This document shows positions 12,809-54,484 of a stretch of DNA of 64,000 nt, piece by piece. The notes beneath the pieces are model-generated. The model was not told where the DNA came from, ran no database searches, and was given only the letters and a program-made list of their open reading frames with translations. The first letter of the stretch is position 1. The number at the start of each line of letters is the position of its first letter. Source of the stretch: Acetobacteraceae bacterium (GTDB lineage: Bacteria > Pseudomonadota > Alphaproteobacteria > Acetobacterales > Acetobacteraceae); assembly GCA_027451405.1 (NCBI GenBank), contig DAIDJM010000043.1, positions 1 to 64,000 of the forward strand, in the 5' to 3' direction. Both the position numbers and the translations under genes were made by a program.

Positions 12809-13876
12809 TCAGGCGCCCATATGCACCACAAAGCGGGTACCCATATGGGAACGATCCAGTTCTAGGGTCGCACCAAGCGAGCGTATCATGGCGCCGATGA
12901 TCAGGGAACCGATGCCGCTTCCCGCGGGCGCGGCGTCATCCGGTGGGTAGCCGACCCCGTCATCCTCGACCACGAGCTGGAGCCGATTGCCGTCCATGCG
13001 GCACAGCCGGACCCGCACGATGCCGGATCCGCCGTCGGGATACGCGTATTTGGCAGCGTTGGTGACAAGCTCGTTGACCATGAGCCCAATCGGCACCGCC
13101 TTATCGGTAGCGACACGCAGCGATTCGGCTTCAACCTCGACCCGCAGCGCATGCTCCCCGTCGCGCACCGTGCGCGAGAGTTCCTCGGCGAGCCCAGCCA
13201 GATAACTCGCCATTTCGACCGATTGCACGTCGTCGCCACTATAGAGCCGTCGGTGCACGAGCATCACCGCCTCGACGCGCTCGGCGGCCTGACGCAGCAC
13301 CTGGCGCGCCGCCGGGTCGGCCAAGCGCCGGGCCTGTATTTCGATCAGGGAAGTGATGAGCTGCAGCGAATTGGCGACGCGGTGGTTGACCTCCCGCAAC
13401 AGGATTTTCTGCTGGGCCGCGAGCTTGGCGAGGCGGTCACGGCTTTCGCGCACTTCGCGCTCGGCGGCCTCGTGCTCGCGCGCGAGGCGCGCCCGCGCGA
13501 TCTCCTGCCCGATACTGGCCGCGAGCAGCTCGATGAACGTACCCTGCACGTCTTTCAGAACGTAATCCGCTGCCCCGTTCTTGAGCGCGCTGATCGCAAT
13601 GCGCGGCTCCTCGGCGCCGGTGACGAAAATCACCGGCGGCCGGCCCGGCAGGTCCTGGAGCGCCTGCAGCAATTCCAGTCCATCGCGTCCGGGCATGTAA
13701 TGATCGAGTGCGATGCAATCGAAACCGCCCTCGCGCGCCAGCGCCTCGCCGCGATCGGGATCGTTTGCAACCGTCACTGCAAATCCATGCCGCGCGAGCT
13801 GCCGCTGAACGAGTCTGGCGATCCCGGGATCGTCGTCCACATAGAGGATTCGCGGCATCGAGCCGGCATCGTTCAT
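12809..13876 (-). CDS. hybrid response regulator / HisKA_2-type histidine kinase
   Basis: 355 residues. N-terminal receiver with phospho-acceptor D58 (CIALDHYMPGRDG), coiled linker about 125-160, then a HisKA_2 domain with H165 in REVNHRVANSLQ and a C-terminal ATPase (NELVTNAAKYAYPDG, DDGVGYP). HWE/HisKA_2 kinases often feed the PhyR general stress pathway. It sits 33 bases behind the Rcp1-like regulator, which could be the input to its receiver. No sensor domain and no membrane segment, so it is probably cytoplasmic. Confidence 0.9.
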   Translation of the reverse strand: MNDAGSMPRILYVDDDPGIARLVQRQLARHGFAVTVANDPDRGEALAREGGFDCIALDHYMPGRDGLELLQALQDLPGRPPVIFVTGAEEPRIAISALKNGAADYVLKDVQGTFIELLAASIGQEIARARLAREHEAAEREVRESRDRLAKLAAQQKILLREVNHRVANSLQLITSLIEIQARRLADPAARQVLRQAAERVEAVMLVHRRLYSGDDVQSVEMASYLAGLAEELSRTVRDGEHALRVEVEAESLRVATDKAVPIGLMVNELVTNAAKYAYPDGGSGIVRVRLCRMDGNRLQLVVEDDGVGYPPDDAAPAGSGIGSLIIGAMIRSLGATLELDRSHMGTRFVVHMGA

Positions 13877-13909
13877 GGCACGAAGGAGGATAACGCGCCG
13901 TGCACCGGC

Positions 13910-14341
13910 TCAGCCCGACTCGGGGACCTGCATCACGGTCAGAAATAGCCCGAGCTGCCGGATCGCCGCCGTGAAACTATCATACTCGACCGGCTTCGTA
14001 ATATAGACGTTGCAGCCGAGGTCGTAGCAACGCTGCACCTCCTGCCGGTCGTCCGTCGTGGTAAGCACGATCACCGGGGTCCGCCGCAACATCGCATCCT
14101 CCTTGATGCGCGCGAGGATGTCGGTTCCGCTCATGTCGGGCAGATTGAGATCGAGCAGAACCAGAACCGGATCCGACTTGCTGACCTCGCCGCGCCCGAA
14201 CAAATGCGCAAGCGCCGTCGTGCCATCGGCAAAATGCCGGATTTCGTTGGTCACCCCGGCGCGCCGCACATTCTTCTCGATGAGGCGCGCGTGGCCCGGA
14301 TCATCTTCGATGAGCAAGATCGTCACTGGCACTGCATTCAT
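13910..14341 (-). CDS. single-domain response regulator, Rcp1-like
   Basis: 143 residues, a receiver only: IEDDPGHARLIEKN, acceptor D64 in VLLDLNLPDMSG, VLTTTDD and the lysine in YITKPVEYDSF. The long insert and IEDDP start are typical of Rcp1-type regulators. No output domain, so it should pass phosphate to another protein. ATG overlaps the stop of the CHASE3 kinase by four bases, marking it as the cognate partner. Confidence 0.92.
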   Translation of the reverse strand: MNAVPVTILLIEDDPGHARLIEKNVRRAGVTNEIRHFADGTTALAHLFGRGEVSKSDPVLVLLDLNLPDMSGTDILARIKEDAMLRRTPVIVLTTTDDRQEVQRCYDLGCNVYITKPVEYDSFTAAIRQLGLFLTVMQVPESG

Positions 14342-15924
14342 CCCGGAACATTCTCCATCGGACCTGGGACGGCGGGCAACCGCAATGAGAAGCAGGACCC
14401 CACCCCAAGCTCCGAGCTGCACTCTATCGTTCCGCCAAGCCGCCTTGCCAGCGCGCGGACATGGGCAAGACCGATGCCCTCCCCCGGCACGTCCTGCGGT
14501 CCGGCACGCCGGAACAGTTCGAAGATACGCTCCAGATCGCGTCCCGCAATACCGCGCCCGTTGTCGCGCACCGAGTAGACCACCAGCGTTCCTTCGCGCA
14601 CGCCGTCGATCGAAATTCGGCCGGGCCGACTCGGATTCAGATATTTGATCGCATTTTCGAGGAGGTTCGAAAATATCTGTTCCATCGCCCACCGGTCCGA
14701 AACGAGCGGCGGCGTGCGGCCGATCACCAGTTCCGCGCCGCTCTCCGCCGCCTGATGCCGGACCGTGTCGGCAATTCCATCGAGCAGGGTCGCCATGTCG
14801 AGGCGCTCGGGCACGAGCACGCGCCTCCCTTCCCGCGACAACTGCAGTATCGCCCGGATCAGCCGGTCCATTTTGGCGGTGCTGGCCTCGATGAAACGGA
14901 TCGCCTCCGGCAGATCGGCCTCGCACGCCTCACGTACTTCGGCCGGGAGCTCTCCCCCCTCGCGCGCCAGGTTGAGTTCGACGAACTCATGCAAGCGCCC
15001 GGTAGCATTCTTCAACTCGGAGGTGAAGCCGATGATGTTCAGAAGGGGAGCCCTCAGATCATGCGAGACGATATAGGCGAAACGCTGAATCTCCTCATTC
15101 GCCCGCCGCAACTCGGCCGTGCGGGCCTGCACCGTCTGTTCCAGCCGCTCCCGTCCCGCCGCCAGTTCCGTATAGGCAAGTTGCTGGGCCTCTTGCGCGC
15201 GGCGCAATTGCCGCACGGAGCGGCGCGCGCCGTTCGCGATCACGCCGGCGAGCAGCACCAGCAACACAAACGCCACGGCATCGACCGCGGCGACGAACGC
15301 GGCCCCCCTGCCGCTCGCGGCGATGTCGTGCACCAGCACGCCGCGCTCGCGCTCAGCGATCCGCGCCACCAGCGTGCGCACATCCTGCATCCGGCGTTCG
15401 CCAAAATCCGACTGAACGATCGCCAGTGCCTCGTCGTGCCGGCCCGCCTTCGCGAGCTCGATGGTACGCTCGAGTTCACCGAGCTTATCTTCGATGGCCG
15501 CGCGCAGCGGGCGAAAGTCCGGATCGTCGGCAAGTTCCGGCCCGATCGCCGCCGTCATCCGCGGCAAGGCCTGCTTCGCCCGGCGGAACGATTGCAGATA
15601 GGAATCCTTACCCGTCAGCAGAAAGCCCCGCTGCCCCGTCTCCGCCGACGTGACCTGCTCCAGAAGCTCGATTGTCTGCGCCCGGATTTCCTGCGACCGG
15701 GCGGCCTGCTGCAGATCGCGGACGAGCCGGATGGACAGCCAGAGCGACGCGCACACGACGGCGCCCAGCACCACTGCGCCCAAGGCAAAGGCAAAGCGCT
15801 CCCGGGGCCCGTAGAGCCTGTCCTCTGCCTCGGTCGGATTTACGGTGTCTCCGATGGCGTCCGGCGCGGTATCAGCTCGCGCTCGAATCGATCCGGTTAA
15901 GCAGCGAGAGCGGGATGGCGGCAT
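14338..15924 (-). CDS. CHASE3-domain sensor histidine kinase
   Basis: 528 residues from ATG 15924, preceded by an AAGGTGG-like ribosome site. Order: short N-terminus, TM1, periplasmic CHASE3 (SAETGQRGFLLTGKDSYLQ), TM2, coiled coil, HisKA with SHDLRAPL, and HATPase_c (NLLENAIKYLNP, DNGRGIAGRD). No other start codon lies between 15924 and TM1, so the gene overlaps the 3' end of the DUF2939 gene by 53 bases. Downstream regulator overlaps by four bases. Confidence 0.88.
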   Translation of the reverse strand: MPPSRSRCLTGSIRARADTAPDAIGDTVNPTEAEDRLYGPRERFAFALGAVVLGAVVCASLWLSIRLVRDLQQAARSQEIRAQTIELLEQVTSAETGQRGFLLTGKDSYLQSFRRAKQALPRMTAAIGPELADDPDFRPLRAAIEDKLGELERTIELAKAGRHDEALAIVQSDFGERRMQDVRTLVARIAERERGVLVHDIAASGRGAAFVAAVDAVAFVLLVLLAGVIANGARRSVRQLRRAQEAQQLAYTELAAGRERLEQTVQARTAELRRANEEIQRFAYIVSHDLRAPLLNIIGFTSELKNATGRLHEFVELNLAREGGELPAEVREACEADLPEAIRFIEASTAKMDRLIRAILQLSREGRRVLVPERLDMATLLDGIADTVRHQAAESGAELVIGRTPPLVSDRWAMEQIFSNLLENAIKYLNPSRPGRISIDGVREGTLVVYSVRDNGRGIAGRDLERIFELFRRAGPQDVPGEGIGLAHVRALARRLGGTIECSSELGVGSCFSLRLPAVPGPMENVPG

Positions 15925-16414
15925 GCACCACCTTCCAGGTCGCCCCCCAGCCCGCGGGTTCCAGCTCGAGCCGGAGCGCGATCGGAGGGTCACCCGGCTG
16001 CTGCTGCGGTGTGCGGAACGCAACCTCGAACCGGGTCGGCCCCACGAAATAGGCGTCGACCAGCCGCGCCCCGAGATGTGCCCCAGCCTCCCGCATCGCA
16101 CTGACGCTCTGCGACAGCCTTTCGGGCGTTACCACGCGATCGACGATGTTCTCCGCCATTCCGCTCAGCATCCCCGCCCCGAACGGGGGCAGGTCGTCGC
16201 TGTCCTGGCTCACCGGCTCCGGCGCCGGCTGACCCGCGATGCCGCTGGCGATCTCCTCCTTGAGCCCGCTGCGCACCTGCGACCAATCCACCTCGGCGGC
16301 GAGCACCGACACGTCTCCGTGACGTAGCGCGCGTCCCATCTCATAGAGCGAGACATACGGCGAGGCCGCATAGGCCGCGACGAGAAAAACTCCAGGGAGC
16401 AACAGCGTCTTCAT
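15872..16414 (-). CDS. DUF2939 family membrane-anchored or exported protein
   Basis: 180 residues with an N-terminal hydrophobic segment (LLLPGVFLVAAYAASPYVSLYEM). The early SPYVSLYEMGRALRHGD is the hallmark of DUF2939. Function unknown. First gene of the operon behind the EcfG-type promoter at 16449-16473, followed by overlapping kinase and regulator genes, so it may take part in stress sensing. That is inference from position. Confidence 0.85.
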   Translation of the reverse strand: MKTLLLPGVFLVAAYAASPYVSLYEMGRALRHGDVSVLAAEVDWSQVRSGLKEEIASGIAGQPAPEPVSQDSDDLPPFGAGMLSGMAENIVDRVVTPERLSQSVSAMREAGAHLGARLVDAYFVGPTRFEVAFRTPQQQPGDPPIALRLELEPAGWGATWKVVHAAIPLSLLNRIDSSAS

Positions 16415-16448
16415 GATTCACCCGAGGGGGGTTGAACGCGCCGGGTGG

Positions 16449-16473
16449 AACACTACGCAAGCTCGGCGGTTCC
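16449..16473 (-). promoter_or_regulatory. EcfG (general stress response) promoter of the DUF2939-kinase operon
   Basis: Read on the minus strand: GGAAC at -35 (16473-16469), a 17-base spacer, and GTT at -10 (16451-16449). This is the consensus used by alphaproteobacterial EcfG sigma factors. It lies about 35 bases upstream of the DUF2939 ATG. EcfG and PhyR are encoded within 1.5 kb. The motif is symmetrical (GGAAC-N17-GTTCC), so it also matches on the plus strand. Confidence 0.78.
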
Positions 16474-16497
16474 CCGCCAGTGCTAAAATGGCGAAAC

Positions 16498-17259
16498 TTA
16501 CGACAGGCTGACCGCCTGAACCCCTCCCGTCACCGCCTGATAGGTGGCGATCGCCAATGTCAGCGGCTCGAAGGGCTTCGTGATCACGAAGGCCGGTTCC
16601 ACCGCATCGCCGGTCAGGAGCCGCTCCGGATAGGCGGTCACGAAGATCACCGGCGCATAATGATCCCGCAGGATCTTCGCGACGGCCTGCGTGCCGTCCC
16701 CGCCGTTGCCGAGATTGATGTCGGCGAGAATGAGCCCCGGCTTGGTCACCGCCGCCAGCTCCACCGCCTCGCGCTCGCTGCTCGCCACACCCACCACCCG
16801 ATGGCCGCAACCGGCCACCAGCTCTTCGAGATCGAGCGCGATGATCGGCTCATCCTCGATGATGAGCACGTCCGCGGCCGCAGCCGCGCGCAGCCTCTCG
16901 CGCGCCTCCGTCAGCATGGCCGCCGCGCTGTCCCCCGGCAGCCCCAGGATCGCCCCTGCCTGCAGCGGCGAGACATCCTCGAGCGCGGTCAGCAGAAGCA
17001 GCTCCCTGTGCCGCACCGTGAGCATCTCCCCCGAGGCGAGTGCGGGCGCCTCGCCGCCGAAACGCCGAGTCACCCCCCAGTAGAGAATGTGCCGTTCATC
17101 GGCGAGCGGCGCCGGGGGTTCCGCGCTGCCCTCCAGCATCTCGCGCAGACTGTCCGCCACCAGCGCGTCCCCGCGGGTCTGGCTCCCGGTCAGCGCCCGC
17201 GCATAGCGCCGCGCATAAGGCAGGGCATGGATCAGCGCCTCGCGTCGTATCGAAGTCAT
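16498..17259 (-). CDS. phyR: general stress response regulator PhyR (sigma-like domain plus receiver)
   Basis: 253 residues. Residues 1-120 are an EcfG-like decoy domain; 130-245 form a receiver with acceptor D180 (LILADINLG) and PAFVITKPFEP at the end. This inverted sigma-receiver order is diagnostic of PhyR. When phosphorylated, PhyR binds the anti-sigma factor NepR and frees EcfG. It is divergent from the sigma gene with 78 bases between; there is no nepR in that gap, unlike the usual arrangement. Confidence 0.93.
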   Translation of the reverse strand: MTSIRREALIHALPYARRYARALTGSQTRGDALVADSLREMLEGSAEPPAPLADERHILYWGVTRRFGGEAPALASGEMLTVRHRELLLLTALEDVSPLQAGAILGLPGDSAAAMLTEARERLRAAAAADVLIIEDEPIIALDLEELVAGCGHRVVGVASSEREAVELAAVTKPGLILADINLGNGGDGTQAVAKILRDHYAPVIFVTAYPERLLTGDAVEPAFVITKPFEPLTLAIATYQAVTGGVQAVSLS

Positions 17260-17337
17260 GGTTGGTGTCTCGTCCTTCTAGCTCTGCGCTGGCCTCGTCT
17301 GCGCCAGCCCGGGCTGGCAGCGACCGCGGATCGGCGT

Positions 17338-17874
17338 ATGCCCGCCCCGATGACCGACCGTGCCGCGCCGGACCCGGATCTGCGCGGCGAACTCGCTTCC
17401 CTGCTGCCGCACCTGCGCGCCTACGCGCGCTTTCTGCTGCGCGACCCGGGCCCCGCCGACGATCTCGTCCAGGAGACGCTGCTGCGGGCCATGGCCGCGC
17501 TGCCGCAATTCGAAATTGGCACGAATTTGCGGGCCTGGGCCTTCACGATCCTGCGCCGCACGTTCCTCGAACAGGCCCGCCGCCGCCGCCGGGAATCCGC
17601 CGCTCTCGAAACCCATTCCCATCTCCAGCTCGCCGCCACCCCTCATCCGGCCGACCTCGCCGACCTCTCCCGCGCGGTCTGGACACTGCCACCCGCATTG
17701 CGCGAGGCGCTGCTGCTGGTCGGCGCCGAAGGCCTGTCGCACGAGGAGGCCGCGTCCATCTGCGGGGTCGCCGTAGGGACCATGCGCGCCCGCCTCACCC
17801 GCGCCCGCTCCCTGCTGGCGAGCCGCCTGGGCACGCCCATGGCGCGGCCGAGCGACACCGATGCGGAATCCTGA
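17338..17874 (+). CDS. ecfG: EcfG-type (ECF15) RNA polymerase sigma factor
   Basis: 178 residues from ATG 17338; ATG 17350 is equally possible and neither has a clear ribosome site. Region 2: DDLVQETLLRAMAAL and GTNLRAWAFTILRRTF. Region 4: ALREALLLVGAEGLSHEEAA and GVAVGTMRARLTRARS. Both match EcfG proteins. Beside phyR, it should direct the general stress regulon from GGAAC-N16/17-GTT promoters such as that at 16449-16473. No such motif was seen in front of this gene. Confidence 0.88.
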   Translation: MPAPMTDRAAPDPDLRGELASLLPHLRAYARFLLRDPGPADDLVQETLLRAMAALPQFEIGTNLRAWAFTILRRTFLEQARRRRRESAALETHSHLQLAATPHPADLADLSRAVWTLPPALREALLLVGAEGLSHEEAASICGVAVGTMRARLTRARSLLASRLGTPMARPSDTDAES

Positions 17875-53251: not shown

Positions 53252-54484
53252 ATGAGCAGATTTGTATGGATGGGCGCTTTGTTCAGCGGCGCCCTCGCGA
53301 CCACGACGGCCCTGGCCCAAACCGCGCCCGCCCCCGCCGCGCCTGCCCCCGCCGCACCCGCTCCAGCGGCGCCGGCCGCGCCCGCGGCGCCCCCCTCCGT
53401 CACACTGCTGGCGCCCGGCATGAACGGACCGCTCGCCTTCCCCTCGCAGCCCTACAGCATCGATGTGGGGCCGCTCGGCAAATGGTATATCGACGGCGCG
53501 CTCACCGGGCTCGGGCTCTGGCAGGACAACCGCACCGCGGTCGACCACGCGACCTACGGCGACCTCAGCAACGGCCAGATCTTCATCCAGAAGGTGGATG
53601 GGTGGTGGCAGTTCTTCGTGCAGGCGGGCGGCTATTCGATCCCGGCGCTCGGTGCCGCCTACACGCCGAACGACCTCGTCCATTCCTGGGGCGATTACTA
53701 TACCGCTCTGCCGCAGGCCTTCCTGAAGCTGCAGCCGACCGACAATTTCTATATCGAGGGCGGGAAGCTGCCGACGCTGATCGGCGCGGAATCGACCTTC
53801 ACCTTCGAGAACCTGAATATCGAGCGCGGTCTGCTCTGGGGACAGGAGCCGGCGGTGAGCCGCGGCGTGCAGGCCGGCCTGACGGAAGGCCCCCTCACGT
53901 TCGCGCTGTCGCTGAACGACGGCTATTATTCCGACCGGTTCAACTGGCTGTCCGGCTCGGCGGCCTGGACCATCAATTCGGCCAATACGCTGACCTTCGC
54001 CGCCGGCGGCAATCTCGGTCACACCGGAACGTCGGCGTTGCGCACGCCGTTTTTCCAGAACAACAGCTCGATCTACAACCTGATCTACACCTACAATAGC
54101 GCGCCGGTGATCTTCACGGCCTACTTCCAGTATCAGAACGTCCCGACCAACACCCAGCTCGGGATTGCGCAGGGCGCGGACAGCTGGGGCATCGGGCTGC
54201 TCGCGAATTATGCATTCACCTCGAACTTCAATCTGGCGGGCCGGTTCGAATACATCTCGACCAGCGGCAGCTCGGCGCAGGGAACGCCCAACCTGCTCTA
54301 CGGGCCCGGCAGCAACGCCTACTCCTTCACGATCACCCCGACCTTCATCTTCGACAAATTCTTCATCCGCGGCGAGGGTTCGGTGGTGACCGCCGGGAGC
54401 GTCACGCCGGGTGACGTGTTCGGCACGAGCGGGACCAAGGATACCCAGTTCCGGGGTCTGCTCGAGGGCGGCATCGTCTTCTGA
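53252..54484 (+). CDS. outer-membrane beta-barrel porin
   Basis: 410 residues from ATG 53252 with GGAA just upstream. Signal peptide ending in TTALAQ, then an alanine-proline linker made of repeated PAPAA units (about residues 25-47), then a barrel with alternating aromatic strands ([28 protein letters not shown]), ending in GGIVF with a terminal Phe. Similar to the putative BBP2/OmpL porin family. Substrate unknown. Followed by a strong terminator. Confidence 0.85.

Follow-up and report, generated by a model that had tools for sequence, protein, structure and literature searches.

Behind phyR, in a 64,000-nucleotide stretch of DNA from an Acetobacteraceae bacterium (the window), lies a block of genes that is probably an operon for stress input to the general stress response (GSR) of alphaproteobacteria. 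A KipF-like sensor kinase would act on the receiver (REC) domain of a PakF-like kinase and phosphate would reach PhyR, a reading to which we assign a probability of about 0.65. We favour it because of the domains encoded, the placing of CHASE3 between transmembrane (TM) segments, the HRxxN motif of the second kinase, the conservation of three of the genes as a unit, the co-occurrence of that unit with phyR, sometimes in linkage, and a precedent in Sphingomonas melonis. The idea of such a relay is largely known already from KipF and PakF of that species. New are the conserved three-gene unit, its co-occurrence and linkage with phyR, and the unusual, split GSR locus of the window's genome.

PhyR is encoded on the minus strand (16498..17259) and combines a sigma-like domain with a receiver, as identified by Pfam, PhyR chains in the PDB and NCBIfam PRK09191 (268 bits, the cut-off being 240). 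Divergent from it, on the plus strand, is the gene for an EcfG-type ECF sigma factor with sigma-70 regions 2 and 4 (17350..17874, an in-frame alternative start at 17338 being also possible). We name this paralogue SigW. In the PDB its sequence matches best with 5uxx (E 9.1e-32), which we take to be a GSR sigma-NepR complex. Behind phyR the minus strand continues with the gene for a DUF2939 protein (15872..16414, Pfam DUF2939) and that for a sensor kinase with Pfam CHASE3, HisKA and HATPase_c domains (14338..15924, start uncertain), in which a hydropathy scan places TM-like stretches on either side of CHASE3. The likely start of the kinase gene is the ATG at 15924, inside the 3′ end of the DUF2939 gene, and the two genes probably overlap. 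An ATGA overlap joins the stop codon of the kinase to the start of the next gene, which encodes a single-domain receiver of 143 residues (13910..14341, Pfam Response_reg). By sequence the receiver matches 3heb best in the PDB (E 1.9e-57), and is Rcp1-like (RCP1 1i3c, E 1.8e-21). The last gene of the block (12809..13876) encodes a PakF-like hybrid of response regulator and histidine kinase, 355 residues long, with Pfam Response_reg (10-111), HisKA_2 (162-236) and HATPase_c. This REC-HisKA_2 kinase has the HRxxN motif and, by hydropathy scan, no TM-like stretch. The matches to Pfam, NCBIfam and the PDB bear out the sequence-only reading in the set of genes it placed together here. A simple scan found no terminator-like site between phyR and the DUF2939 gene, so all five genes might be transcribed together.

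Does any of this arrangement recur elsewhere? The CHASE3 kinase, receiver and REC-HisKA_2 kinase genes form a unit that holds together at 24 of 26 places outside the window (seven of eight in the family and 17 of 18 in the class), some of the neighbours being counted from partial or split matches (L151, L218 and L220) and a weaker place, G036:C107, lying outside the count. The two exceptions are a partial additional copy in G010 and a place in G278 that has the receiver without the second kinase. The CHASE3 kinase itself was found in 11 of 100 family genomes, the window's included, at E <= 1e-30, and at E <= 1e-60 in 18 class genomes besides the window's, among 387 searched. The unit is present in 11 families of the class other than the window's own. 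A PhyR match (E <= 1e-20) was obtained in 16 of the 18 class genomes with the kinase as opposed to 58 of the 368 without it. Fisher's test gives p 9e-11, a value that ignores kinship and genome size; counted by family, the co-occurrence stands at ten of 12. The two kinase-bearing class genomes in which PhyR gave no match are G278 and G414; these searches score few candidates per genome, and misses are possible. Co-occurrence and occasional linkage, together with the KipF-PakF architecture, uphold the claim of the sequence-only reading that the block serves GSR input. Among the literature matches listed, drawn from a literature outside which most subscription papers lie, no title deals with the three-gene arrangement.

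The surroundings of phyR in the family are stable. We compared 100 loci, 20 and the best 80 from two sets of family genomes, all selected for having PhyR and 93 of them distinct; the family is mostly Acetobacteraceae in the wide sense, some members being labelled Roseomonadaceae or Elioraeaceae in the tree. For orientation, 67 of 100 family genomes give a PhyR match at E <= 1e-10, weak receiver-only matches included. In 80 of the 85 distinct loci with enough DNA on the sigma side, phyR is divergent from sigW, sigC and nepR, in that order. The exceptions are four loci without a separate sigW, three of them from Gluconacetobacter, and one without a nepR match. A HisKA_2 kinase gene follows in 73 of the 85. 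On the other side, no CHASE3 kinase, REC-HisKA_2 kinase or DUF2939 gene was found beside phyR in any of the 93 distinct loci, 77 of which extend at least 5 kb behind phyR, and a receiver match (39% identical) was found there in two. The relatives L041, L061 and L062 carry GlgE/TreS-like and branching-enzyme-like genes behind phyR, named by reading their translations, at the place that the sensor block occupies in the window.

Since nepR lies on another contig here, the window's genome splits this otherwise stable locus. The assembly is 97.66% complete, in 67 contigs, and two genome searches agree on one full PhyR. The sole NepR match of the genome search, on contig C14, scores 26.1 bits (cut-off 25.7). 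There the gene order is a second EcfG-like sigma gene (SigC), nepR, and a phyK-like HisKA_2 kinase gene whose product has an N-terminal TM-like stretch, judged by eye. Were the two contigs adjacent, some 28 kb or more would still separate the phyR and nepR places. Thus nepR was not found at the phyR/sigW locus of this genome, its presence there being the usual arrangement and not obligatory. On the technical side, the split is open to doubt mainly because a contig could be mis-binned. Such an error is made less likely by the complementary gene sets of the two places and by the nearest relatives (L061, L041 and L062) that PhyR and the full-length phyK-like kinase have in common.

All the components of the PhyR-NepR-EcfG partner switch are therefore in the genome, whose core differs from the usual one in its two EcfG-type paralogues and in the placing of phyR with SigW, and of SigC with nepR and the phyK-like kinase, on separate contigs. 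A tree of 35 sequences, which carries long-branch warnings, sets SigW and SigC apart as distinct groups; in the PDB the two score much alike (113.6 and 108.5 bits). We think that SigC is the main EcfG and SigW an accessory paralogue, because SigC is linked to nepR, evolves slowly by the tree and persists in loci that lack sigW. The window's sigma factor had been cast as the output sigma factor; it is indeed of EcfG type, but it is one of two paralogues and not the one beside nepR. A further sigma factor, on contig C3, is matched by the PhyR-sigma2 model, and the product of the next gene contains a hydrophobic stretch, as anti-sigma factors do. With such an anti-sigma-like neighbour, it was set aside as a GSR sigma factor.

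The DUF2939 protein is predicted to adopt an NTF2-like fold with a long N-terminal helix (AlphaFold2 model, mean pLDDT 85.4). The nearest folds are NTF2-like, the best with a modest Z of 8.8 that says nothing on function; Foldseek returned nothing for the model at E <= 0.001, and the hydropathy scan shows no TM-like stretch. DUF2939 matches occur in 26 of 387 class genomes, where, outside the window, none is near phyR or the CHASE3 kinase gene, the genes being on other contigs or more than 200 kb apart. We accordingly dropped DUF2939 as a regular partner of phyR or the sensor genes, and its presence in the block looks incidental.

Does the GSR in turn control its sensors? An EcfG-type sigma factor could drive DUF2939 and the sensor genes from a putative promoter on the minus strand, GGAAC-N16-TGTT (16449..16473), which was found by pattern match. 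This feedback is independent of the readings of the pathway; it is possible but weakly supported, and we lean against it. In favour of it, the site lies in the 83-nt gap behind phyR, some 35 nt ahead of the first codon of DUF2939. The sequence-only reading had called it a consensus EcfG promoter, and a near match it is; but it has TGTT and not CGTT, and it is part of an exact inverted repeat, GGAAC-N17-GTTCC (16447-16473), that reads in both directions. Upstream of DUF2939 the form GGAAC-N16/17-CGTT was not found and the looser GGAAC-N17-20-GTT was. The latter is the loose motif of S. melonis in the part of PMC6599016 available, whereas GGAAC-N16-CGTT is ascribed to R. etli or S. granuli in the accessible portions of PMC3892343 and PMC7083833. 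In the window the loose pattern has four matches, two of which are the palindrome itself, against 2.88 expected, and the strict CGTT form one, at 54026, against 1.30 expected. Across the genome 121 loose sites compare with 85 for a reversed control, so that perhaps about a third exceed chance. In two of 24 units the 300 bp ahead of the CHASE3 kinase gene contain a loose site, against 0.6 expected (2.6% per unit); 25 units were given, L220 was skipped, and the window was counted negative as its site precedes DUF2939. These sites are too few to tell from chance. Moreover, transcription from phyR might run on into the block, given that the simple scan detected no terminator-like site behind that gene. 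The suggestion that EcfG raises the level of its own input proteins is thus only a possibility.

Two further motif searches were set aside. In family loci the strict GGAAC-N16/17-CGTT occurs in five of 87 sigC-nepR gaps (0.25 in shuffles), four of 93 sigW-sigC gaps (0.05 in shuffles) and none of 93 phyR-sigW gaps, a survey in which a few sigW matches may be cross-hits to sigC. Above chance in two gaps, it is too rare to calibrate the window's site. A sequence pair conserved upstream of sigC gave 12 matches in the window's own genome against two for the control. It was dropped as a regulon motif since, on a crude ORF map, sigC alone is in a clear promoter position; L198, L199 and L205 are also outside mapped ORFs.

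The two-tiered KipF-PakF-PhyR kinase pathway of Sphingomonas melonis Fr1 was described by Kaczmarczyk and colleagues in 2015. KipF reportedly has its CHASE3 domain between two TM helices. The window likewise encodes a CHASE3 TM kinase and a soluble REC-HisKA_2 kinase with HRxxN, a likeness of architecture. We infer the signal, the phosphotransfer steps and the role of the single receiver as follows. The membrane CHASE3 kinase would sense stress and phosphorylate the N-terminal receiver of the REC-HisKA_2 kinase, which would thereby be activated. Phosphate from this second kinase would end on PhyR, directly or via a further carrier, and PhyR~P would capture NepR, encoded on the other contig, and free the EcfG-type sigma factors. 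In keeping with this reading, the second kinase shares 39% identity over 233 columns with the HisKA_2 kinase beside nepR. In S. melonis, PakF is described as being without a sensor and as phosphorylated by KipF during stress in the portion of PMC5863495 consulted. The same portion supplies a second example in which one kinase is able to phosphorylate a REC-controlled kinase on its receiver, LvrA-LvrB of Leptospira, which belongs to a different phylum and is described there without a PhyR output. Unlike KipF and PakF, the window's kinases are encoded in one unit behind phyR with an Rcp1-like receiver between them; the Pak genes of S. melonis are scattered in the genome according to excerpts of PMC5898713.

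The single receiver would most likely be phosphorylated by one of the kinases as an additional target and serve as a phosphate sink or brake. By sequence it matches the structures of RCP1, RcpA and RcpB, response regulators of phytochromes, but it is encoded with a CHASE3 kinase and not with a phytochrome. Its first helix reads DDxGHAxLIE in 24 of 24 units. The corresponding helix in the REC of the second kinase has DDxG..RL in 19 of 24, the pattern being absent from L162, L212, L215 and L216, while L218 was misread by the script; that of the PhyR receiver is EDEPIIALDLEEL. First-helix identity is 0.33 within units and 0.28 and 0.33 to PhyR. These values do not separate partners and so lend no real support to a shared kinase.

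The strongest rival, in our view unlikely, is a relay of the Sphingomonas type, in which the second kinase would phosphorylate the single receiver, and phosphate would pass to the histidine of the nepR-linked membrane HisKA_2 kinase, in the role of PhyT, and on to PhyR. A Pak-SdrG-PhyT-PhyR route is published, in which PhyT is anchored in the membrane and its gene belongs to the phyR locus (PMC5898713, in part). Excerpts of that paper also report that Paks phosphorylate SdrG in vitro, and PhyR when NepR is present; together with the part of PMC6599016 available they make Pak-SdrG-PhyT-PhyR the main route in vivo and direct Pak-to-PhyR transfer a minor one. Similarly, the window's genome encodes, near GSR core genes, both a single receiver and a kinase anchored in the membrane, the latter being the nepR-adjacent kinase with its N-terminal TM-like stretch. 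The receiver argues against such a relay. SdrG and the other FAT GUY single receivers have the motif PFxFATG(G/Y), as given in the accessible text of PMC5964349; the window's receiver is Rcp1-like and its translation, inspected by eye, lacks PFxFATG.

It is improbable that the unit controls an output other than PhyR and is behind phyR by accident, although its position gives that idea some substance. The unit is unlinked to phyR in six family genomes that have both, where it lies either on a separate contig or some 266 kb distant, and in 12 of the 16 class genomes with both; the seventh family genome with the CHASE3 kinase, G031, has no PhyR match. What follows phyR also varies in the family, a GlgE/TreS-type gene being present in 20 of the 83 loci that extend at least 3.5 kb. 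Against this, the unit is less than 5 kb from phyR in the other four of those 16 class genomes, where 0.04 would be expected, and these cases span two families, three of the four being from one genus; in G113 the PhyR concerned is a second, divergent copy. The co-occurrence in 16 of 18 genomes and the KipF-PakF precedent point the same way. The chain proposed by the sequence-only reading, from CHASE3 kinase to single receiver to REC-HisKA_2 kinase to PhyR, agrees with the position of the receiver gene between the kinase genes in 24 of 26 places but is very improbable, as it requires a receiver-to-receiver (Asp-to-Asp) transfer that is chemically unlikely and, to our knowledge, not an established reaction, while transfer to the histidine of the second kinase would leave its REC without a role.

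The preferred reading, a pathway like that of KipF and PakF, has observations against it too: the minor share of direct Pak-to-PhyR transfer in S. melonis, the lack of linkage between unit and phyR in the family, and the two class genomes without PhyR.

More tentatively, and at somewhat less than even odds, the CHASE3 kinase, Rcp1-type receiver and REC-HisKA_2 kinase may form an obligate PhyR-input cassette, with the receiver as a brake or sink that sets the threshold, which joined phyR as the ancestral GSR locus of the window's lineage broke up. If so, the input arm and the anti-sigma arm of the response are now at separate places in that lineage.

In sum, familiar signalling logic is here arranged in a new way and joined by a puzzling third component. 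In acetic acid bacteria and related organisms, two adjacent EcfG-type sigma genes are the rule at GSR loci, a pairing that figures in no title among the literature matches listed. The compact operon makes the role of the receiver testable, and the conservation of the unit suggests that the two-kinase input known from a single Sphingomonas strain is widespread as a cassette, with an uncharacterised receiver as its third part.

In the family Acetobacteraceae, the usual arrangement places the EcfG-type genes sigW and sigC in tandem between phyR and nepR, as seen in 80 of 85 distinct loci (from the set L041-L140). Four loci of that set, from Gluconacetobacter, lack sigW. Upstream of the SigC gene a promoter-like pair, GYARC-N16-18-YATT, occurs in 73/93 distinct family loci (L041-L140), against a background of 1.3% per 320 bp. 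The version in the genome from which the window derives is GCAGC-N17-CATTG, at positions 68515-68541 of contig C14 (locus L009, G000). The pair may be a sign that a different ECF sigma factor, possibly SigW, controls SigC.

Contig C3 of the same genome carries one more ECF sigma gene (locus L010, 4811-6072); the next gene encodes a protein that has a hydrophobic stretch and is probably an anti-sigma factor.

The unit of CHASE3 kinase, Rcp1-like single receiver and REC-HisKA_2 kinase is found approximately 3 kb from phyR in other genomes of the class, at L162 and at the family f37 loci L161, L206 and L207; in f37 the gene order is three-gene unit, sigma gene, phyR and phyK-like kinase. In the window, the DUF2939 protein (15872-16414) is predicted to adopt an NTF2-like fold with a long N-terminal helix (mean pLDDT 85.4).

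In the close relatives L041, L061 and L062, the genes that come after phyR are GlgE/TreS/GlgB-like and are likely an output of the general stress response.
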